64,000 nucleotides of DNA from Bryum argenteum (lineage: Eukaryota; Streptophyta; Bryopsida; Bryales; Bryaceae). The stretch lies in contig CM073323.1 in assembly GCA_037043015.1 (NCBI GenBank), forward strand, positions 10,351,758 through 10,415,757, read 5' to 3'. Position 1 is the first letter of the stretch. Every line of letters begins with the position of its first letter. Shown piece after piece: positions 10,477-48,756 of the stretch. Both the position numbers and the translations under genes were made by a program. Below the pieces are notes generated by a model. The model made no database searches, was not told where the DNA came from, and saw only the letters and a list, made by a program, of their open reading frames with translations.

Positions 10477-10517
10477 ACATTAGGTGCAAAATGGGGTCTC
10501 GAAAAGGCCGTGTAAGC
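10477..10517 (+). repeat. Left terminal inverted repeat, 41 bp
   Basis: Matches the reverse complement of 20716-20756 at 40 of 41 positions (difference at 10500). Sequence diverges immediately inside, so the TIR is sharply bounded. Confidence 0.93.
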
Positions 10518-11285
10518 CTGCCCTTTCTAGGTGAACATCCTGCCCAAATGCGGCACTGTCGCTGGCAGCGGGTGCCAGGATCGCTGCCCGCAGAGTTAAT
10601 AGGGCGGTTTAATGGTCTCGAGATGGGGTTGCGGGGTGGGGTCGGTGTGCCTAGTGGCGCCGAGGTGGCTGCCTTGTTTGGTGAACCACGCCTTCTCGCA
10701 TTGACTGCCCATGAAGCACGATTCGAAGGAGAGATGACGGGAGATTGGTGTCAACCGTTACAAGATTCAAAGTTTGCTGCCACAACGGGAAGAAGCCATG
10801 GAGCTCGGTCGACACTAGGTTGGTCTTCCCACCTGGGAATGGGGAGAATAGAAGTTGGGTGCGTAGAATTTGGGTGTTGCAGGACCAACGACCCAATTTG
10901 CAGGTGGAATTCGAGAGAGTCAAGGGAAATTGTGACAACTAAACCAGTGAGCATGATTGTCAGATACGCGCTGGCAGCAGCGTGAAGCAGTCACAAATTT
11001 GAGCAGCAAGCATTCGAAGGGTGTTCTTGCAACACCTACTACCGTGGACTGAAGAGGTTGTGTAAGTGTCGATTTCTCTATGACAAGTTTGGGTCGTGCA
11101 TTTGTACATTGCATGCTATTCATTTGATCCTGCAATTTCCTTGAGTGGCTATGGTATAGGGTTTGGTTGTTGTGAACTCTGCAGTTTTGGGTATTTGGCA
11201 ATCTTAAAAACGTTTATCTACATACTTCCAGGCCGACCCGGGGCATTGAGAGCTTGAAGCACTACTTCGGAATTCTGGACTCACG

Positions 11286-14200
11286 ATGGCAGCAGGAGTG
11301 GCAGAGTCTTCAAGCTACCGTTTCTCAGTTTTGCTTGATGCACGCTACGCACCACTTGTTAGAAGAGGTTCAATGAGATCCGAGCAACCCTGCCCATCAA
11401 CATTTCCTGGACGGAGGGCAGCCGGGGATACAAACATTGATTTGTGGATCGATGGCAGCATTTACCCGGTTGATCCAGGAACAGGGAGGCCACCTCCATT
11501 CAAAACTCTTCGACATTGCCTGGAATTCATATGTCATGGAGAGCAAGGTCTGTATGGATATGCACGCAGATTGGGTCTCGTTGATGGAGGAGGACCTACA
11601 CGGCGTGAGATGGAAATGCAGTGCCGACATTTAGAAGAAGAACTCGGCAAGGTGAGAGACGACCTTCTTTGGCGGCGAGAAAAGGCTCGACCATAATAGG
11701 GACATTGAGGATACATGCATGCAATTGCGGATTGAATTGGAGACTATTCGAACCGAGATGAGCAGCATGGAGAGAAATCATAGAGTGACGGTGCAGGGCT
11801 TGGAGACCGAGGTTCGTCGCTGGCAGCAAGCAAGTGAGCGCGTACAGGAGGGGCCTAGCCCTTTGAAGGACACGCCTATGGGGATGCGACGTAGGGCTCG
11901 ATCGCTCAGGGGGATTCATGAGTTGAATCATGGATCAGGGTGGGCAAAACGCAGAGTGAAGCTCGTTAGGATGCATTTGCAACCTCATCTCGTGGATGCT
12001 GTCAACGACAACAACCGGGTCAACCATGAGAAGCAGCGACTTCATGGGGATAAAGCTTTCCAAACAGTAACTGCTATAGCGTTAGCAAAGATATTGTCTA
12101 GGCATGAAGGTCTCACCCTCGCAACTCAGCCATCTATGGAGCATGTTAAGAAAAAGATTGCTAGTAACGTCCTCAAGGCAATTGGAAAAAGGGTAGGGCC
12201 CAGTAATATTCTTGCTGCCTGCGACCAAGCAGGGGTGTCTTATCGCGGCTATGGTGCAATCTACGAAGCCGTGAAGGCTCCACTTCGGGATTTGACCAAG
12301 GATGGCAAATCCAACATACTACCTAGTCCCTACCACGTCAGAAGGCTTCGGCAGGAGCTAAATGCGAACTTGCCACAATTCATTGGCCAGTACTACCACG
12401 CTGAGGGAAGGATGGAGCTGCCAGCAGTGTCAAAGAAAACCAAGAAATCCGAGGAGCAGCGGAAGGAGGTGGTCTTAGATGAAAAAAACTCGCTATTCAC
12501 GGACCTTGAGGTGGTCCAGCAGAGCATGGTGATCTTTTATGGCATCACGGAATCAGGTATGCATCCTCTGCTTCTCTTGTTGACAGCAATGGTGAATGTC
12601 CGTTTGCTGCCAGCAACTGCATTGTGTGTCTTTAACAAAGGAGGCTAATTTGATTGCATTACAGAAACATTCTCACGTGAGGATATTCTTGCAGAGTTGA
12701 AAGGGGCTCCGTTGATATTTGTCCTCAAGCTGGATGAGGCAGAGATTATTAACGGGAAGAAATTTGAACGTGTTAGCATCACGTTGATGAATCGGGCTTT
12801 GGACACAAACATTCAGGTGGACCACGAGAGGTACTTCTCAGTACAATCAAAGCAGGAGATTTGGCCAGTTGCCACGTTTCAGGTCAAGAAGGAGTCCTAC
12901 GATGTTCTCTCCTGGATATTTGGAAAGTCGAACATCCCGGCTGTGATTGCAGCACAGTCAAGTGGCGAGAAACTCACGGTCTTTGAAGTTGGAGAATTCC
13001 AGGTGGAGTGGCATCTTGCTGCGGACATGAAGACGATCAAGTGTATGTACGGGCTTCAGTCGGGGCCGTCGTGTGCAATGAACTGCATATACTGCGACCA
13101 GAAGAGGATAAAGCCCACTGTGGGGACAGCAAGCCAGGCAAACGCTGCCATCAAGAGCCGTGGTAAAGCAAACTGGGTGGGGGGGCTATTTTCCAGCAGC
13201 GTACCTGAGGAACCTTGTGACATGACAACATCTAGTAGGTGGAGGCCTATCCTGCCGATTCCTTTGTCCAGAGTGCACATTTGTACATTGCATGCCTTGG
13301 TTCGATTGACGGAGAAGATTGTGCACATGCATATCATGTATGTTTGGAACATACAGAATCAGAGACTGAGGGCTACTGCAATTGAACAAATGGAGAAGTC
13401 GTTGTCCGCGATTGGGGCTCATGGTGGAAACGTGGAGATTAAGAGGGACCCCAAGCTCAGTGGCAACACTGGAAACGTGCCGCAAAAACCCTCTTTGAGT
13501 GGTACCGTTGCCAGCTGGCTTTTTAGGCCAAGCGTTTGGTCTGGCAATGATACGGCCTGGAAGGATATATGTCAAGCTGAGAATAATAATGCTAGAAGTG
13601 GAGCTGACCGCATTGCAAAGTATCAGATGTGGCAAGCCTACGAAGAGGTCGTACCATATTTGACAGGATTGGTGTTGACAGCAGAGCAACGGATGTAGTT
13701 CAAGCAGAAGATACACAAGTGGGGAAAGGCATACTTAAAGGCCTTCGGAGAGGAGCATGTTACCCATTATATGGTATGCCCACGGCTCTGTCTGTTGTTG
13801 CTTTTGGTCTTTCTTCAGTGAACCGTCTACTTGACCTAAATATCTGGCTTTTAACTTCCTTCTTCTTGTTGACAGCACGTTATTGTACGGCACTCCACTT
13901 GGTTTGTGGAACACTATGAGAGCCTTGGAGTCTGGAGCTGCCAAGGCATGGAGAAATCACACCACCAAGCAAAGGCGGCACATCAAGCACATACAGCCCA
14001 TGGTGGTGGGAAAGCACGTACTAGTGCGATTCTCCAGCAGTTCCAGCATTGGTACCGAAACATACAACATCGATATAGGAAAAAAATGGAGCTCCAGGGA
14101 GGTGAACCTGACCCGGACGCTGGAGCACGGGCCCTAGCGGCATCCAGGAGACGCGAGCGGTGGCAACAATCAAACGCTGCCATCGCCTCCAAGGAGTGGA

Positions 14201-14340
14201 GGTCAAGGAGGAGGCGTGTTGGAGGAGCATATGTTCTTGAAGAAGTCGTGGAGGGCGAAGGAGATGGCATGATGGAAGAAGAGCCGGAATGGAATGCCAA
14301 CGGTGACATGGTTGGCAGTGGGGGCGAGAAAGATGAATAG
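11286..14340 (+). CDS. Transposase-like protein of the 10.28-kb element
   Basis: Proposed exons are 11286-11651, 11710-12556, 12665-13773 and 13876-14340 (introns of 58, 108 and 102 bp, all GT-AG; the frames join exactly), giving 928 codons. An N-terminal part with a coiled coil (about residues 105-150) precedes a core with FVLKLDEAEI (Asp about 428), a block HLAADMKTIKCMYGL (Asp about 525) followed by CIYC (a Cys-x2-Cys pair), and LHALVRLTEKIVHMHIMYVW. The order Asp, then D-x-K...G-L...C-x2-C, then LHxLxR matches, as I recall it, a transposase-like family of animals and protists with an RNase H-like core. The C-terminal exon has GVWSCQGMEKSHHQAKAAH, also typical. One in-frame TAG (13696-13698) lies inside exon 3 with no credible intron to remove it, so this copy is probably inactive unless the stop is read through. 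Confidence 0.6.
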
Positions 14341-15235
14341 AGGGACGCTGCTAACAACGATGAGGACATCGCGGATGCTGGCAACAGGGGTGCCGGGGAG
14401 GATATTGCCCCCGATGTCGACATTGCACATGCTGACAGCGACTAGGGGGCTCAGAGTCATGGAGTTTTTTTTGATATACAATGTTTTGTAGAAGGGTAAT
14501 GTTATAGAGAAGTAATACCTTTCAAAGATACTGTATTCTATAGATAGGATAGTGAAGCGAGTAGTTACATGAACGCTTAAATTGTCTTCAAATGTACACT
14601 TTCATTTAATAAAATATGAAAAAATTAAAAAACTCAAATAGTTCACTTTCAAAATTTAGGAGATGTGCGAATACATAGTCAAGGAAACATCGTCCATACT
14701 CAGGCAAATTAGACTGGAATTTTTTTAACTACATGATCTCACATTCGCGATATCATATTTAAATTTTAGAAAATATGAATGTTGTTTATAGAAATAAATA
14801 TTACAAAAAGCCAAATGTTTCCCCTTTGAATCATGTTCTCTTGTAAAGTAATCTTGCTTTCAAATTTAGTTCTCTTAATTTTTGATCATATATCTTAGTT
14901 AATAAGTATTTACATTTAATATTTCTTAGAGATTTTTACGAGACCCTAGGTGCCATTAAGTTGCATCACTTCTTAATTGAATTTTCTTATTTTTAATTTT
15001 TAAATTTTATGCTTCTCAATGTGTTCCAGAAGAAAGTTTGGAGGAGAGTAGAACAGATGAAAATTTTATAATTTGATTTGGTTTGATTTGGTTACAATTT
15101 GATTAGGTTATAATTTGATTTGGTTTGATTTGGTTATAATTTTTAGATAGCTCTCTTATCTTTCATTATTTAAGGTTTTGTTCTGTTTACATTTTTACCT
15201 TTTTTTTTTTTTTTTTTTTTTCCCAAATAATTTTA
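14341..15235. other. AT-rich spacer inside the transposon
   Basis: No gene. Contains TTTGATTTGG repeats (about 15070-15140) and a 22-base T run (15200-15221). It is much more AT-rich than the rest of the element and could be a later insertion, but I find no terminal repeats. Confidence 0.5.
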
Positions 15236-15490
15236 ATGTGATGGGACTGTAGAGGAGGCTGCCTTATGATGGGCGCCTGTCAAGCCCCTGTGACCGTGGC
15301 GCCCATTCCCGCGCAGGGTAGAGGGGGAGGAGCGCCCCCCTTCCCCCCTCTCGTATCGTCGTTGCTGCCAACAGCTCGGAGCAACGCCGTGCTCGGAGCT
15401 GTGCTGAAGCAAGGTGACTTTTGGGGCAGCAGCGAAGAGGGGGAAGGCGAGGAGCGAATGAAATATAGCGGGCCGAAGAGGAGCGAAGGG

Positions 15491-15586
15491 GGAAAGGTGC
15501 GGGGAGGGAGGCGTAGATAGGAGGAAAGGTGCGGGGAGGGAGGCGCAGATAGGAGGAAAGGTGCGGGGAAGGAGGTGTAGACAGCG
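15491..15586 (+). repeat. 32-bp tandem repeat, three copies
   Basis: Units starting GGAAAGGTGCGGGGAGGGAG begin at 15491, 15523 and 15555. They sit in the very GC-rich, purine-rich stretch upstream of the gene at 16050, probably its promoter/leader region. Confidence 0.85.
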
Positions 15587-15950
15587 AAGGAGCGGAAGAG
15601 AGGTGCGGCGCGACATCGCCAGGAGGAAAGGGAGGGAGGCGCAGAGGGTGCTGCAGAGGAGGAGGTCGGGAGATCACCGCGGGAGGACGTGCGAGAGTCA
15701 CGCGCGCGAGCAGCAAGCGAGGAGGAGGAGGTCGGGAGATCACCACGGAGGACGTGCGAGGAGTGCGCGCGCATGACAAAGCAGCAGCGAAGCGGCAATG
15801 GCGGAGTCATAGTCAAGTAAGGGACAGTCTTCTCTACTTGGGTTTTTTTTTATTCTTGCATTGAGTGAAGGTTCCCAACTGAGTTGAGCTCAGTATGCAA
15901 GGGGTAGTCAAGGTAAACTGTTTTGTAGATGGGTGTGTCAGATTTTTTAT

Positions 15951-16003
15951 GAGGATTCGGAGTGAGGATTCGGAGTGAGGATTCGGAGTGAGGATTCGGA
16001 GTG
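15951..16003 (+). repeat. 13-bp tandem repeat, four copies
   Basis: The unit GAGGATTCGGAGT begins at 15951, 15964, 15977 and 15990. It lies just upstream of the start codon at 16050 and may belong to the leader or promoter of that gene. Confidence 0.9.
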
Positions 16004-16049
16004 AACTGTATGCAAGAATGCACTAACAATTCTATGTTGTGTTGCAGCC

Positions 16050-17960
16050 ATGGTTGCTGGCAGCAAGGACGACGGTGTTTTCACGCAGTGGAACCTCCCT
16101 TTCGACCTGAAGGCTCTACCGCAGGATGTGGCGGACAAGGTCGTGGTGATTGCGCCCTTTCTTCTTGGTAGGAAGAGTGCAAACTACGACGTCGATTTCT
16201 TCCACCGTACACTTGGCCTCTGCAAGGAAGGGATATCCTTCACCGAGCTCAGCAGTGACAAGGTATGCAAGAAATCGTTGTTCATTAAGAGTTGGCCGGA
16301 ACGACAAGGAGGGCGGCACCACATTGCTGATTGCACTGACAACCAGGCTATCGAGGCTTACACACTCCAACATGCGAAGGTGTATGGAGGTGAAAGCCCT
16401 GACAACGGGACATTTGGTACCTCCTTCCTTCGAGGCTGTCATCTGACGTTCGAGTTGGGCCAAGACGTCAACTGGGCAGAGAAAGCCGCGACCTTGCAGA
16501 AGGCACGTGATAAGAAAGATGCCCGCAACCCTCTGAAGCTCACACCCCCAGCCTTCAGAGAGCAGATCGAGGCCCTCATCGACGTGCTCGCTGGCCACAT
16601 CGACGACAGACCCTCTGCTGGCAACTCATCCTTGGCCATTGAGGGAGTCGGCATTGGACCTAGCCACGGGGTCCTTGTTACGGGGAGCAGCAGCAAGGGA
16701 GCGCCTGCAGCAAAGGGAGCTCGGGGTCGCACTCGAAGCCAGCTCAGGTCGAAGGCGCCCTTGATCACTGAGGAGGACAACGTGCCCAAGTCTTCACTTG
16801 CTGACAGCAAGGATGAAGACCGACCCAGCACGGATCCAAAGGTGAAGCTGGACCAGGCCAGGGCCAAGAAGGCGAGAGCTCAGGCCGACCTCACAAAGAA
16901 GGAGGCTCAGAGGGAGTTGTTTCTTAGAGATATCAAGAACCAAAAGACCTTTTCGAAGGAGAAGGAGGATGAGGAGGGCCGGTTCTATGAGGAGATTGCT
17001 GCCCACCGTGCTGCCAGCAGGCTAGCCGGGGCCGCTGGCAACAAGGCAGAGAAGAAGCGATTGGATGCTCTGGCCCGTCAAGGTGGTGATCAGATGGCCA
17101 ATGCGAGCAAGGCTGCCGAAGAAGCCCAGCTTCGCATTGACAACAAGGAGAAGCAGATGGAGGCATTGATGGGGGACATAGAGAGGTGCAAGGCCGAGGT
17201 TGGTGCTCTTAGCGTGGAGATCATGACCCTGGAGCTGGCAGCGGCATTCATTCGCCCGAAGAGTGTGCTCCCACACCTGCCATCCGAGTTCCGAGCCCTC
17301 CCCATTCAGGTTTCCGACCCTTGTCCCTTCTGTGCACGGTACTTTGTTGACGCCGCTTGTGTACCCTTGAACTGCGGCTGCTTGGCACACCCACATTGCA
17401 TGTTTGAGGTTGTCTTCTCCATTGACGCCAAGTGTAGCCGTTGCTGCCGCTCCTTGAGTGGGGGGTGGCTTGGGCAATGGGGATTTCCACTGCATGAGTC
17501 GGCTCAAGCGGAGCTCCAGCACCTCCAGGAGGTTCTCAAGTCCGAGGTGGGAGCACCAGACCTCCAGAGCCCCGTTGCTGGCAGCAAGAGGGCCGCTGAG
17601 CGCTCTTCTCCTCCTTTGGGGGAGGAAAACCAAGTCAAGAAGAAGACTCGCTTTCAAGAGGAGTCGGAGTCTTCGGGTCCGCTTGTCATCGCCAAGATCT
17701 CCGCTCAGCCCCTGGTATCCGCGGACTTGCTGCCAGCAGATGGAGGGGATGGCGATGGTGTTGCCAGCACCCAGAAGTCAGATGACCTGAGCTTCCAGCG
17801 GGAGACACAAGCCCCTCCACGCCAGGAGGCCGAGGACACAGCCACTCATGGTGGTGGACTCAGCTCCAGTACCACCGAGTCCGAGGGGACATCTCAAGAC
17901 CCGGCTGGAGCTGCCCTGGAGAAGCTGGTTGATGCCATCGCGAGCTCAGTAGAGGCTTAG
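16050..17960 (+). CDS. Transposon gene 2: coiled-coil protein with RING-like Cys/His cluster
   Basis: A single open frame of 636 aa starting at the first ATG, right after a GTTGCAG that may be a splice acceptor for a leader intron. Residues 1-185 form an uncharacterised domain (DVADKVVVIAPFLLGRKSANYDVDFF; WPERQGGRHHIADC). Residues 190-262 are low-complexity and basic/acidic. Residues 265-400 are a long Lys/Glu/Ala-rich coiled coil. Residues 425-466 carry CPFC, NCGC, HPHC and CSRC, a spacing close to a RING or related cross-brace zinc finger. The C-terminal 150 residues are disordered, Ser/Gln-rich. The gene lies between the transposase-like gene and a convergent third gene within the same TIRs. 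A DNA-binding or anti-silencing accessory protein, or a ubiquitin-ligase-like factor, would fit; neither is shown by the sequence. Confidence 0.7.
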   Translation: MVAGSKDDGVFTQWNLPFDLKALPQDVADKVVVIAPFLLGRKSANYDVDFFHRTLGLCKEGISFTELSSDKVCKKSLFIKSWPERQGGRHHIADCTDNQAIEAYTLQHAKVYGGESPDNGTFGTSFLRGCHLTFELGQDVNWAEKAATLQKARDKKDARNPLKLTPPAFREQIEALIDVLAGHIDDRPSAGNSSLAIEGVGIGPSHGVLVTGSSSKGAPAAKGARGRTRSQLRSKAPLITEEDNVPKSSLADSKDEDRPSTDPKVKLDQARAKKARAQADLTKKEAQRELFLRDIKNQKTFSKEKEDEEGRFYEEIAAHRAASRLAGAAGNKAEKKRLDALARQGGDQMANASKAAEEAQLRIDNKEKQMEALMGDIERCKAEVGALSVEIMTLELAAAFIRPKSVLPHLPSEFRALPIQVSDPCPFCARYFVDAACVPLNCGCLAHPHCMFEVVFSIDAKCSRCCRSLSGGWLGQWGFPLHESAQAELQHLQEVLKSEVGAPDLQSPVAGSKRAAERSSPPLGEENQVKKKTRFQEESESSGPLVIAKISAQPLVSADLLPADGGDGDGVASTQKSDDLSFQRETQAPPRQEAEDTATHGGGLSSSTTESEGTSQDPAGAALEKLVDAIASSVEA

Positions 17961-18573
17961 AGTCTGTTGTTTTTTTTGGTTGATAGTGCCATAGCGGATT
18001 AGTATTAGTGGCATTTACTTTGTGCCACGTTGCATTTGCATTTGCTGCCCTGATTTTTGACTCTATGTTCACAGCTGCGGTGCCAGCAAGTAGTTGCTGG
18101 CAGCAGTGTGTAAGTAGTTCCGATTGGGGGGGGGGTTGGGGTCAGACTTTAAAAAAACCGAACCTCATTTTTTTTCGACACTTATGATGAATGTTATCCT
18201 CTTTTATTTCTATCTTGTACATGTGGCTGCCACATTGGTCGTGAACCCTAATGTGTGCTGACAGCAACATGTTCTAGAAGAAGACTTTCATTCATCAAGG
18301 GGGAAGGTTACATGATTGACCATATATTTAACCATACATGATGTGTCAAGCACAAAGCATAGTCCCTTACAAGTTTAAAGAATCATTCTGGCATTGGTTT
18401 AGTGAAACATGGAGTCATCTCAAATACTGTAGGCAGACTTGTGAAGACACTAATAGATCACCTTAATGCCGTGGTGAAAACGTTGTTGTCCTACACCTCC
18501 ACTATCTTGATGGTTTTGGGAGCCGCCACCTCACCAAGAAGTACACGCCTCTCATTACGTATGTTGATCTACA

Positions 18574-19812
18574 TCAATGCCTCCAACAAAATGCGTTAGT
18601 ACAATTATGCTGATACCAAGTAGCAGCACCTTGCGTATCTAAAACCAATGGGGTGATGTTGCTTACATGTACCTTTTTTTCACGTGAACCGTCTGCTTCC
18701 ACCAAAACCATGTTGTACTCTTTGGGATCATCGTCTCCGAGCGTCATTGCAATTTCATGGCGCAAGTGGGATACAGGCCAGTCCTTGCCCACTTCAAATG
18801 CTGGCATTGGTCTCCCTCTAAATGTACAACAGACTTCTACCATCTCCACCTCTGGTAGATGGTCAATCGCATCCCATCTGTTGTTGGCAGCACCCCGAAA
18901 CCTTGTATACTGGAACCTGGTGTATAGTGTTTGTCTGCCCACATGGTACCGGAAGACAATGCTGGACCTATTCACAACGCACTTGATAACATCCTGGCCA
19001 ATGTGAAACTTCTCAGCCCATCCAGAATTCATCACACTACTTAGGAGTGCCTCTGACGGAGAGTGTAGAACGAAGAGTGTAGGAGTCCGCCGAATGCTGT
19101 CACATGCGATCGCAAACAAGTCCACCATAACGTGGACAGGCATAAACCATTGCTCATGGGCGAAACTACTGCCAGTGGACGCTTTCATCGCATTCGAAAA
19201 ATCTGCTGTCAGCTTTGTCCTGAAGGCTTCGGAGGTGTGCATGTCTGGCAAAGGCCACTCCACGTCGTTGAAACCAGGGAGCGGGATTGGTTCTATCCTC
19301 CCGTACAACGTAGGCTCTACCGGGGGAAAATATACGCCACCAAGGAAGAATGTACCCGTGTCCAACAAGTCTGTATGGCTTCGACCATTCCGCGTCGCCT
19401 CCCCAATCTCTGCATGGAGCACAAGAATGGGACTCATGATAGACGTGGGGTGCACCCAATCATCAAAGTGCGAGGAGTATAGGTAGTTTGCCGTGCATTG
19501 CCTACTTGCTGCCACAGCGGGATCCAAGCTTAATTGGCGAGGCTGATACGCATGCCGCACAAGCACCTTATCTAGGTTGCTTGCTCCACGCACACCAGGT
19601 GTCCATGAGAAATCCACGATCTGAGCCTTGAAGGCCCCTCGAAAATTATCTCCACCATGCCGCCTTGCCTCTCTACCCCAAGGCCCTTCCGACTTTGGTT
19701 GCAGCAGAACCCACGAATCCCGGTCCAGCCTCATTGGGATCCAATTGCCATGGACATCTTGATAGTTGTGCAGAATTACGCTCTGAACTATCGATTTTGG
19801 CCGTCTAGCCAT
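18574..19812 (-). CDS. Transposon gene 3: unknown protein, possible ubiquitin-like C-terminal fold
   Basis: A 412-aa open frame on the minus strand from ATG at 19812, convergent with gene 2. I do not recognise the main body (conserved-looking blocks WVLLQPKSEGPWGREARRHG at 34-53, HFDDWVHPTSIMSPILVLH at 115-133, YFPPVEPTLYGRIEPIPLPG at 161-180). Residues about 324-392 (EMVEVCCTFRGRPMPAFEV..., WPVSHLRHEIAMTLGDD) alternate strand and helix in a way that resembles a beta-grasp, ubiquitin-like domain. No membrane segments or signal peptide. Codon pattern and GC are like gene 2. Palindrome cores flank but do not occur within the frame except as weak matches. Role presumably in transposition or regulation; unproven. 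Confidence 0.6.
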   Translation of the reverse strand: MARRPKSIVQSVILHNYQDVHGNWIPMRLDRDSWVLLQPKSEGPWGREARRHGGDNFRGAFKAQIVDFSWTPGVRGASNLDKVLVRHAYQPRQLSLDPAVAASRQCTANYLYSSHFDDWVHPTSIMSPILVLHAEIGEATRNGRSHTDLLDTGTFFLGGVYFPPVEPTLYGRIEPIPLPGFNDVEWPLPDMHTSEAFRTKLTADFSNAMKASTGSSFAHEQWFMPVHVMVDLFAIACDSIRRTPTLFVLHSPSEALLSSVMNSGWAEKFHIGQDVIKCVVNRSSIVFRYHVGRQTLYTRFQYTRFRGAANNRWDAIDHLPEVEMVEVCCTFRGRPMPAFEVGKDWPVSHLRHEIAMTLGDDDPKEYNMVLVEADGSREKKVHVSNITPLVLDTQGAATWYQHNCTNAFCWRH

Positions 19813-20715
19813 GCTTCCCTAAACCCCAAGGTATTGGGAGACACAGAAATGAACTATAACATCTCCCTTTCGTACCAACCAAGGCGAGGGAACATGCTGC
19901 CAGCACAACAAAAATCAAATTTGCATAGTTTGAGCACTTGAGGAGAGCAAAATCCTGAGTTCGTATTCAGAGATGAAGTTTGAGGAATTCATGCCTAGTC
20001 ACAACGTTGCCCCCAGGAGGCAGAAAAGCTTGGATCATGTCAAGACAGGGAATTGATCGATATGAAAAAAAAGTTACCTAGTTTTGTAGCTCGCTGGCAG
20101 CAAACGGCACATTGAGTTGACAGCGAAGAAAGCCGCACTTCCACCTTGATTCAGCAAGTAACTACTCGAGCACAATTCGCTACATGAACAACACCCACAA
20201 CCCCAAATCACCTGGTCAACTCCCAGCAAGTGCCAAGTCTTGCTGCCGGCACCGAATTTCCACAATCACGTGTTTCTCCCTTCACACTAACCCGCACCCA
20301 CTCTCCCAAATCAGCTGGATTCCTCTCAGCCCCAACTCCCGCTGGCTGCAACCAATTTCCCAAGTGCGTCGCTTCTCCCGTAGCGCCGAACACCTGCTGG
20401 CTGCACTCACTCTCCCTACGAATTTCAAAAACTTCGGCACTCACTCATCGTCGGTGGAGGAGGTAGGTGGTCGGACTCGTAATTTCCTCGTTCAAAGTGT
20501 TGGCAGAAACTTTGCTGACATGAGCAGGCCGGCTCGGGATCCGGTCCTTGCTCCGCCAGTCCGCTGCCAGCCCGGCACTGTAGATGTGCCCTCCACACGC
20601 CTCGTGGGGAGGTCATTGGTTCGAGCCCCCGTGGCGGTTGCTGGCACCACGGTGGCATGTGCGGTGCCATGTCAAAAAGCACGCGGGCAGCGCTCGTTTT
20701 TTTCTCTCACGTGCC
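19813..20715. other. Right subterminal region of the transposon
   Basis: Contains palindrome cores at 19896, 20093 and 20563 plus near-matches at 20222-20250, 20340, 20394 and 20636. It is probably the promoter of gene 3 and the subterminal protein-binding region. Open frames are likely by-products of high GC. Confidence 0.55.
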
Positions 20716-20756
20716 GCTTACACGGCCTTTTCCAGACCCCATTTTGCACCTAATGT
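20716..20756 (-). repeat. Right terminal inverted repeat, 41 bp
   Basis: Inverted copy of 10477-10517. The terminal 20 bases inward from the outer end read ACATTAGGTGCAAAATGGGG on the minus strand. Confidence 0.93.
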
Positions 20757-46600: not shown

Positions 46601-48756
46601 ATAGAATTGTAAACCTTTTGGAAAATTTAATATTTTTAGTGCTTGTGATGTAGGTTAGTTCGTGTATGCGAAATGGGCTTCTTGATTTAGATGGATTGGA
46701 GTATACAATTCACGATTTGTACATTGAATTTGCTAAGGCTGAAGCTCAAAAAGGACCAATGGAGGGAAGGCGTTTTTTAATTGACGAAGATGGATTCGAT
46801 GTGCCTTTTGAACTACTCAAAAATCCATTTGGAAACTCTTGGCCATGCTTGGAGAGGCTTATTATTATCAATAGCGAAGTCAATAGCCTCCAAAAAGGAA
46901 AATTGCATACTTGCTCGAATGTAGAAGTATTGTGCTTATTTAATTGTAAAAAACTCATCAAATTTGATGTTCACAAATTAGAAAATCTGAGAAGCATGGA
47001 CGTCTATGGATGTGGGAAGCTCGATTTCAATACATTCAAGTTTGAGAAGTTAGAGAATCTCATATATATTTCCTTAATAAGCTCTGGTACCTCCATGAAT
47101 CTAGCTGGCCTTGAAGCTCTAACCGCTTTGAAGAAATTGAATGTAGTCGACTGTCAAGATTTGATAGAGCTACCAAGGAGCTTGAGTGCATTGCAAGACT
47201 TAAAGGAAGTCAACGTGAACCTTTGCAATCACTTGAAAAATTTAGATTGCATTAAAGACTTGGGTGCCTTAAAGAAGTTGAATATTTGCAACTGCGAAAG
47301 TTTGGAGAAGTTTCCAAGTGAGTTGAGTCGATTGCAACACTTGGAGGACCTTGATGCTCGAGGTTGTTATGGTTTGAAGAACTTAGATGGCATCAAAGAC
47401 TTGATTGCCTTAAAGAAGTTGAATATTTGCAACTGCGAAAGTTTGGAGAAGTTTCCAAGTGAGTTGAGTCGATTGCAACACTTGGAGGACCTTGATGCTC
47501 GAGGTTGTTATGGTTTGAAGAACTTAGATGGCATCAAAGACTTGATTGCCTTAAAGAAGTTGAATATTCAATTTTGTAGAAGTTTGGAGAAGTTTCCAAG
47601 CGATTTGAGTCGATTGCAACACTTGGAGGACCTTGATGTTTCAAATTGTTATGATTTGAAGAACTTAGATGGCATCAAAGACTTGAGTGCTTTGAAGAAG
47701 TTGAATATTTGCAGCTGCGATAGTTTGGAGAAGTTTCCTAGTGAGTTGAGTCGATTGCAACACTTGGAGAACCTTGATGCTTCAGGTTGTTTTTATTCGA
47801 AGATCTTAGATGGCATTAGAGACTCGATTGCCTTAAAAAAGTTGAATAGAAGTTTGAAGAAACCTCCAAGTGATTTGAGCCGATTGCAACACTTGAAGGA
47901 CCTTGATGTTTCTTTTTGTTATTATGGTTTGAAGAACTTGGATGGCATCAAAGACTTGATTGCCTTAAAAAAGTTGAATATTTGCTACTCTAAAAGTTTG
48001 GAGAAACTTCCAAGTGATTTGAGCCGATTGCAACACTTGGAGGACCTTGATGCTCGAGGTTGTTATGGTTTGAAGAACTTAGATGGCATTAAAGACTTGA
48101 GTGCATTGAAGAAGTTGAATATTTGCAACTGCAAAAGTTTGGAGAAGTTTCCAAGTGAGTTGAGTCGATTGCAACACTTGGAGGACCTTGATGCTTCTTT
48201 TTGTTATAATTTGAAGAACTTAGATGGCATCAAAGACTTGATTGCCTTAAAAAAGTTGAATATTTGTTTGTGTAGAAGTTTGGAGAAACTTCCAAGTGAT
48301 TTGAGCCGATTGCAACACTTGGAGGACCTTGATGCTCGAGGTTGTTATGGTTTGAAGAACTTAGATGGCATCAAAGACTTGAGTGCTTTGAAGAAGTTGA
48401 ATATTCGTTTGTGTAGAAGTTTGGAGAAACTTCCAAGTGAGTTGGGTCGATTGCAACACTTGGAGGACCTTGATGCTTCAGGTTGTTCTGATTTGAAGAA
48501 CTTAGATGGCATTAAAGACTTGAGTGCCCTGAAGAAGTTGAATATTCGTTTGTGTAGAAGTTTGGAGAAACTTCCAAGTGATTTGAGTCTATTGCAACAC
48601 TTGGAGGACCTTGATGCTTCAGGTTGTTTTTATTTGAAGAACTTAGATGGCATTAAAGACTTGAGTGCCTTGAAGAAAGTGAACATTCGTATGTGTAGAA
48701 GTTTGGAGAAACTTCCAAGTGATTTGAGTCGATGGCAGCGTTTGGGAATACCTTGA
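43625..48756 (+). CDS. TIR-NB-ARC-LRR immune receptor (TNL) with N-terminal anchor
   Basis: Exons 43625-44509, 44696-44947, 45170-45856 and 46654-48756 (all GT-AG, all introns phase 0) encode 1308 aa. Residues 8-40 are a hydrophobic anchor; 69-108 are a linker with a duplicated EEVxGPSxIxP motif; 113-275 are a TIR domain (HNIFLSHSG, HTPFLD, KWPMIEL with the conserved, probably NADase-catalytic Glu at 189). NB-ARC: P-loop GVGGIGKTT (319-327), kinase-2 LVLDNV (395-400), STIVVTSR, LPLALKVLG (about 502-510) and IHDL (MHD-type, 627-630). LRRs follow to the end, with about ten 47-residue units. Known role of the family: intracellular sensing of pathogen effectors, TIR NAD-cleavage signalling and cell death. 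The hydrophobic N-terminus is unusual and suggests membrane tethering. The LRR frame ends by a shift relative to the repeat consensus at about 48745. Confidence 0.88.
47263..48755 (+). repeat. 141-bp (47-aa) LRR units, about 10.5 copies
   Basis: Each unit encodes two leucine-rich repeats (ALKKLNI...SLEKFPSEL; LQHLEDLDA...LKNLDGIKD). The first two full units (47281-47421 and 47422-47562) are identical over 141 bp. The fifth is shortened. Variation concentrates at the solvent-exposed positions after KKLNI. Confidence 0.95.

Follow-up and report, generated by a model that had tools for sequence, protein, structure and literature searches.

Family-specific palindromic words in a Bryum argenteum transposon and in related elements of the same genome

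A window of 64,000 nt from Bryum argenteum (contig CM073323.1, positions 10,351,758 to 10,415,757) contains a 10,278 bp transposon through which the palindrome GCTGSCAGC is dispersed many times, in flanking sequences that are unrelated from site to site. Related clades of the same transposase carry other words, these words are partly retained between subfamilies, and on one branch of the transposase tree their occurrence coincides with that of gene 2, one of three putative genes of the element (gene 1, the transposase; gene 2, with a coiled coil and a RING-like finger; and gene 3). The roles in binding and anti-silencing discussed below are inferred. We regard the chances as evenly balanced that the palindromes are binding sites of a dimer encoded by the element, most likely the gene 2 product, which would work in the manner of the VANC proteins of VANDAL transposons while being unrelated to them.

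A palindrome dispersed through the element

All 14 exact GCTGSCAGC sites of the window lie in the element, enclosed by inverted repeats of 40-41 bp (Table 2), where 100 dinucleotide shuffles of the 64 kb gave a mean of 0.25 sites and at most 2; a second-order Markov model predicts 0.13 exact 9-mers. Near-matches are plentiful as well, as the first-pass annotation of this DNA had reported: with up to three mismatches to TTGCTGSCAGCAA allowed, 37 sites lie in the element and 16 outside it, 53 altogether against 15.45 expected for the window, and an iterated symmetric weight matrix (14.5 bits, consensus TGCTG-S-CAGCA) finds 44 sites in the element, against a mean of 1.35 and a maximum of 4 in 20 order-1 simulations. 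A scan of all 5-base half-sites identified TGCTG-N1-CAGCA as the top palindrome of the element, with 25 sites against a simulation maximum of 4.

The sites occur in coding sequence, a probable intron, a spacer and both subterminal regions, much as had been described, and seven of the 14 exact sites fall within putative coding sequence, which makes up 57% of the element (5,867 of 10,278 bp), indicating that coding sequence is not avoided. The sequences flanking the sites resemble one another (0.290) no more than those at random places do (0.289), and the sites are therefore not copies of one repeat; the unrelated flanks and the location of sites both inside and outside coding sequence suggest that the word was built repeatedly by point change rather than by copying. 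Regular spacing of the sites in the element was looked for, and the gaps (mean 235 bp) are near random, as judged from their coefficient of variation of 0.88. Tandem repeats, for which masking was used, cover 329 bp of the element.

The earlier description of the palindrome as confined to the transposon holds within the window, however it does not extend to the genome. A scan of all 258.8 Mb, with the reversed word as control, found 2,071 GCTGSCAGC sites against 903 for the control, an excess that is not private to this element, at a density of ~1.4 per kb in the element versus 0.008 per kb genome-wide. The longer TTGCTGSCAGCAA occurs 12 times, including three in this element (control, 2), and 666 of the 2,071 sites sit in a longer palindrome, CGGCTGSCAGCCG, of another repeat type (control, 3). 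One cluster of this longer palindrome (L063, C1:3099500-3109499) has eight sites in 10 kb, and some L063 sites lie within a local repeat block; positions 1830-8390 of L063 carry the palindrome ATCGGCTGSCAGCCGAT, whose 13-bp core has 666 occurrences in the genome (control, 3). Comparison of L063 with genes 1, 2 and 3 by phmmer gave no match, seven of its open frames gave nothing above the curated Pfam cut-offs (three weak matches, E 0.02-0.13), one open frame had no match in the PDB, and no long inverted repeats were seen in L063. This second repeat type, which has no sequence match to the element, may follow the plan proposed for the element below.

Different words in related families

With the main exon of gene 1 as query, 88 exon-level matches were found in the genome, and 29 loci besides the window's own were examined (L006-L034, ~4 kb each, 47-62% identical). 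GCTGSCAGC is absent from all 29. Ten loci (L011, L012, L013, L016, L017, L019, L020, L028, L033 and L034) carry the class II word GTTKSMAAC, at 3-13 sites each versus 0.1-0.4 in simulation, and nine (L006-L010, L014, L015, L024 and L025) carry the class III word GCTKMAGC, at 2-8 sites each versus 0.2-0.7; L025 has four TGCTNNAGCA sites in addition, and the class III word pair is GCTKMAGC/TGCTNNAGCA. In nine further loci of ~4 kb (L021, L022, L023, L026, L027 and L029-L032), referred to as word-less, none of the three main words is in excess; the words are absent there, apart from single TGCTNNAGCA sites in L021, L027 and L029, and are likewise absent from the ~4 kb of L018.

The word classes were first spotted in the same 4-kb loci in which they were counted, and counts in new DNA were made separately. 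In 17 kb of new DNA the class II word held up, one stretch of 9.0 kb having 14 sites and another of 8.0 kb having 18, where simulation of the whole stretches gives 0.6-0.7. Counts over long stretches produce a nearly diagonal table of words by families (Table 1), and the half-site scan placed TGTTG-N1-CAACA at the top in both class II families, with 18 and 24 sites versus simulation maxima of 5 and 10. A search that presupposed no word, for the top 8-mer with one mismatch allowed, returned TGCTGCCA (z 11.3) for this element, TGCCAACA (z 5.3) for L012, GCTGCAGC for both L007 (z 10.2) and L006 (z 5.7), GCTTCAGC (z 4.6) for L015 and TGGATCCA for L018 (37 occurrences versus 9.7, z 8.6, with five exact sites), the last of which is possibly a fourth word class (IV). 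The two stretches in which gene 2 was not found gave CTGCCGGC (z 3.8) and CGCGCGCC (z 5.2). Related families therefore carry different words, a result that is firm for class II, weaker for class III and exploratory for class IV.

Table 1. Sites of the three main words in long stretches of the element, related loci and flanking DNA
Stretch	GCTGSCAGC	GTTKSMAAC	GCTKMAGC
This element	14	0	1
L012	0	21	0
L017	0	31	1
L007 pieces	0	1	13
L006 pieces	0	1	5
L015 pieces	1	1	4
L018	1	2	0
L022 stretch	1	0	0
L026 stretch	0	0	0
L063	10	1	0
Host flank, 53.7 kb	0	2	3

The first palindrome scan of the 4-kb loci was too weak for most of them. GTGG-N3-CCAC palindromes of L018 were rejected as a candidate word, being mostly a tandem array, and terminal repeats of the L012 and L017 families were not found in the DNA examined, beyond which their left ends probably lie. 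Another locus, L054 (C3:11754000-11762702), has gene 2 pieces in both orientations and the possible fourth word as TGGATCCA/TGGAGTCA.

On a gene 1 tree of 29 rows the five labels (I, II, III, a queried IV, and none) need four changes, the minimum, with support of 99/98 for the class II clade, 97/98 for class III and 89/84 for the word-less clade, whose branch is drawn open; L009 is not in the row set A2, L018:1168-1947 is in A2 but not in the tree, and L024 and L030 are each represented by one of two pieces. The class II subfamilies L012 and L017 are 72% identical over 10,196 aligned columns and have 26 and 45 class II sites, respectively, in the parts compared. Among 22 alignable sites, 13 remain motif sites, four of them with altered letters, versus 2.7 if nine identical bases are required, and exact retention is 9 of 23 versus 18% of random 9-mers (binomial 0.013).

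Candidate readers of the words

All nine word-less loci have both a gene 1 and a gene 3 match, ~0.8-1.5 kb apart, whereas gene 2 was found near none of the nine among the candidates scored (69 of 147 in one search and 72 of 310 in another), nor by phmmer or profile in 15.0 kb around L022 and 14.5 kb around L026; the positive control for the profile, L052, is one of its rows and thus not independent. Either gene 2 or gene 3 had been named beforehand as the protein that might target the palindrome, and gene 2 is favored because genes 1 and 3 are present where the words are lacking, a contrast seen at one split of the tree. Gene 2 also changes fastest, having the lowest identities to the window genes at both L012 (gene 1, 57%; gene 3 pieces, 42-54%; gene 2 pieces, 38% and 29%) and L017 (55%; 43-51%; 38% and 27%).

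The gene 2 model consists of a mostly helical N-domain (residues ~12-188, mostly at a predicted local distance difference test score, pLDDT, of 70-95), a coiled coil (263-399) and a folded region (~420-500), with 217 of 636 residues below pLDDT 50. A profile of 17 gene 2 rows matches, among known structures, the RING of AMFR (E 8e-4) and RNF126 (E 0.002) and weakly BRE1 (E 0.13), as well as coiled-coil proteins, and Pfam RING models give weak matches only, in at most three of the 17 rows. A dimer formed by a coiled coil would suit a palindrome.

Since words are private to each family and the clade in which gene 2 was not found seems to have none, it is suggested that each family makes a protein that recognizes its own DNA, the palindromes serving as an addressing code. 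The gene 2 protein would dimerize through its coiled coil and bind TGCTG-S-CAGCA at the ~44 places observed along the full length of the DNA of its own family, and is expected to bind TTGCTGGCAGCAA, of its own class only. The RING-like finger may then act as a local ubiquitin ligase, for example placing ubiquitin on H2B as BRE1 does, or may be directed against a silencing factor; the element would thereby stay open along its entire length to expression and transposition, with the host and other families spared. Families would have diverged by rewriting protein and word together, the replacement words in relatives being TGTT-KSM-AACA-like, TGCTGCAGCA-like and perhaps TGGATCCA, the last two being less firm. 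A broader and more tentative proposal, which we hold somewhat less probable than its negation, is that a RAG1/CACTA-type lineage of a seedless land plant independently evolved family-private addressing, in which a RING coiled-coil protein reads dozens of palindromes in exons and spacers and locally overrides silencing, with each clade having rewritten word and reader and the second repeat type perhaps built likewise.

It is unlikely that the sites bind the gene 1 transposase, for synapsis and excision. CACTA and hAT transposases bind subterminal repeats, gene 1 resembles a real transposase, its clades coincide with the word classes, and motifs are present in both subterminal regions; however, the sites run throughout the element and not just near its ends, the words are not in excess at L022 and L026, which are relatives by gene 1, and short copies with both ends keep motif sites no better than random words. 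Slightly less probable again is that the words are sites of host factors exploited by each family, serving as enhancer, origin, boundary or nucleosome-positioning sequences, for which it can be said that host factors can bind palindromes and that the GCTGSCAGC core also occurs in a repeat type without matches to genes 1-3. Within this one genome the words nevertheless change from clade to clade, with hardly any overlap, and they show no excess in the 53.7 kb of flanking DNA. Recognition of the palindromes by gene 3, a conserved neighbor of gene 1, is improbable given its presence at every word-less locus and its slower change relative to gene 2. Artefacts of composition, codon usage or internal repeat spread, which might be suspected from the G+C content of the element (0.50) and from two full-palindrome sites that encode the identical peptide VAGSK in gene 2, are ruled out for practical purposes, as neither shuffles, simulations nor the second-order Markov expectation reproduce the counts, seven of the 14 sites lie outside putative coding sequence, the flanks are unrelated, and other clades carry words of their own.

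Several observations weigh against recognition of the words by gene 2 products. The gene 2 contrast is a single split of the tree, gene 2 candidates were scored in part, and seven of the nine word-less loci were examined over ~4 kb only. The word-bearing loci L014, L020, L024 and L033 are also without gene 2 in their 4 kb, so that its absence from short loci proves nothing. Nor is anything shown by genes 1 and 3 lying close together, as at L018 the gene 2 copies lie beyond gene 3. No DNA-binding domain is apparent in gene 2 by fold search, and the whole model gave no match with E up to 0.001, its top rows being long helices. As for the words, GCTKMAGC has only 5, 1 and 0 sites per 10 kb in new DNA (L058, L057 and L056), the half-site scan of long stretches did not rank class III or IV words top, and the class IV word was noticed post hoc and is exploratory. 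The top word of the word-less L026 stretch, CGCGCGCC, though G+C-rich, has a z of 5.2, about that of L012 (5.3), and the alignment of L012 and L017 may be anchored by the motif itself in poorly conserved parts. Conservation of the motif in other copies of the element, which the first-pass annotation would lead one to expect, is no better than random: seven other copies keep 22 of 32 motif sites versus 84% of 2,299 random words, and no selection on the motif is therefore visible within this family. A variant count including GCTGNCAGC (19 of 32 versus 82%) handled alignment gaps badly and is superseded by this one.

The element and known systems

The element has the termini CATTAGG...CCTAATG (Table 2). 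Its left end is common to seven other genomic copies and its right end to the six whose right end was seen; these six are 1.9-2.5 kb long, and the seventh, C7, is known at its left end only. A target site duplication was found at these ends in none of the seven copies, unless the AT inside CAT..ATG is counted, which is indistinguishable from the repeat. All gene models are putative, derived from open frames. Related elements at C10:6738978-6767984, C2:2201550-2229566 and C3:10872674-10917634 may span 28-45 kb, with the order gene 3, several gene 2 matches, transposase. Elsewhere in the window, positions 46666-48756 hold a 696-aa open frame with leucine-rich repeats, in which one 13-base word recurs every 141 bp, and positions 986-2777 on the minus strand hold a copia-type retrotransposon remnant with gag and the start of pol.

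Table 2. Features of the element and exact GCTGSCAGC sites, in window coordinates
Feature	Coordinates	Strand	Remarks
Whole element	10478..20755	+	10,278 bp; termini CATTAGGTGC...GCACCTAATG; from inverted repeats and ends shared with other copies
Left terminal inverted repeat	10478..10517	+	40 bp; inverted-repeat search and other copies
Right terminal inverted repeat	20716..20755	-	inverted-repeat search and other copies
Gene 1, probable 5' part	11286..12648	+	predicted from two open frames, 11286-11696 and 11719-12648
Gene 1, main transposase exon, D..C(2)C	12649..13698	+	88 exon-level genome matches; AlphaFold model nearest RAG1
Gene 1, next exon, H(4)H and GVWSCQGME	13873..14340	+	motif pattern recurs at 10 of 29 related loci
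Gene 2, mostly helical N-domain, coiled coil and RING-like finger	16050..17960	+	most likely motif reader (inferred)
Gene 3, 412 aa, no Pfam match	18574..19812	-	open frame, Pfam scan
GCTGGCAGC, left subterminal	10561..10569		exact match
GCTGGCAGC	10970..10978		exact match
GCTGGCAGC, putative gene 1	11819..11827		exact match
GCTGCCAGC, putative gene 1	12417..12425		exact match
GCTGCCAGC (full TTGCTGCCAGCAA), probable intron	12606..12614		exact match
GCTGGCAGC (full palindrome), gene 2	16056..16064		exact match
GCTGCCAGC, gene 2	17010..17018		exact match
GCTGGCAGC, gene 2	17234..17242		exact match
GCTGGCAGC (full palindrome), gene 2	17577..17585		exact match
GCTGCCAGC, gene 2	17729..17737		exact match
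GCTGGCAGC, spacer	18096..18104		exact match
GCTGCCAGC, upstream of gene 3	19896..19904		exact match
GCTGGCAGC, upstream of gene 3	20093..20101		exact match
GCTGCCAGC, right subterminal	20563..20571		exact match

Gene 1 probably belongs to the CACTA-Mirage-Chapaev-Transib (CMCT) group, a placement that rests on RAG1 as the best fold match and on the C(2)C and H(4)H motifs. The best AlphaFold model has a mean pLDDT of 70.2 (the other four, 52-44) and matches RAG1 moderately (6dbl_A, E 2.6e-5, probability 1.00, template modeling score 0.45), followed by 6dbu_A (E 6.9e-5), an amphioxus RAG-like transposase (E 1.6e-3) and, weakly, Transib (E 0.21); of the structures solved so far, RAG1 is thus the closest to the model of this land-plant transposase (window positions 12649-14340). 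The PDB holds few CMCT structures besides RAG and Transib, and RAG1 as best match is therefore no pointer to Transib in particular. In gene 1 the D..C(2)C pattern, of which there are 24 matches, some at overlapping loci, is followed in the next exon by H(4)H and GVWSCQGME; besides the window, 10 of the 29 related loci have the H(4)H pattern. According to passages of PMC12730594, C(2)C and H(3-4)H are marks of the CMCT clade. Pfam scans of gene 1 frames and of 30 gene 1 rows identified no transposase, the single match among the rows being to DUF6008 (E 0.028), and no family exceeded its cut-off in genes 1, 2 and 3.

Membership of the MULE/VANDAL group was rejected on the absence of a Pfam transposase in gene 1, the RAG1 fold match and the C(2)C and H(4)H motifs, and CACTA/EnSpm proper on the CATTAGG termini and the lack of a Pfam plant transposase match. 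With the CMCT clade the element shares C(2)C, H(4)H before the last E, CA..TG termini and the RAG1-like fold match; it differs in the missing Pfam transposase match and in the addition of accessory genes 2 and 3, and the 2-5 bp target duplication of CMCT elements was not seen unless the AT inside CAT..ATG is one.

The accessory protein TnpA, encoded by maize En/Spm, recognizes a short word present in repeated copies and reduces methylation, and it is not known to contain a RING. Both TnpA and, as proposed here, gene 2 would form systems of an accessory protein and a short word, however TnpA sites are subterminal, whereas those described here lie throughout the element. Lanisha, reportedly from Maumus, McDaniel and Carey (2020), authors who are said to work on a moss, is possibly the same lineage as this element. 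The host genome of the element has 28 NAC-domain matches, by our count ~15 genes, which fits a land plant and probably a bryophyte. Lanisha is named as a CMCT lineage in PMC12730594, which also describes TET/JBP genes in fungal transposons, another possible anti-silencing route. A search of the open literature, at the level of titles and abstract openings, met no dispersed family-specific palindrome system, which is no claim of absence from print.

Three or four word classes are represented among the clades, and in one clade gene 2 was not found; together these make a change of specificity directly testable, and gene 2-type proteins could be family-specific chromatin tools. In the parts of PMC5735166 and PMC10398659 drawn on here, VANC is a fast-evolving anti-silencing protein of Arabidopsis VANDAL elements; it binds a short word that has built up within a single family, a related family having another word; its effect spans the whole VANDAL element, and its words (YAGTATTAY; AGTTGTCC/AGTTGTAC) lie largely in tandem repeats of noncoding DNA. 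The VANDAL work raised the puzzle of how a long element can come to carry a short word throughout, and how that word can change together with its reader; in the portion of PMC5735166 consulted, the answer given is tandem repeats. The sites described here lie outside tandem repeats, and seven of the 14 exact sites fall in putative coding sequence; another route of spreading must therefore exist. The comparison with VANC made in the first-pass annotation is upheld in that a short word is strongly enriched in this element and related families carry different words, and falls short on kinship: the scattered palindromes with unrelated flanks differ from noncoding tandem repeats, the coiled coil and RING-like finger of gene 2 differ from the DUF1985 of VANC (Pfam scans of genes 2 and 3 and of 17 gene 2 rows gave no match to DUF1985), and VANDALs are MULE/MuDR elements, whereas gene 1 is placed in the CMCT group. 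By analogy, there is perhaps an equal chance for and against the logic of VANC having been reached here by a protein without DUF1985, in another group of transposases.

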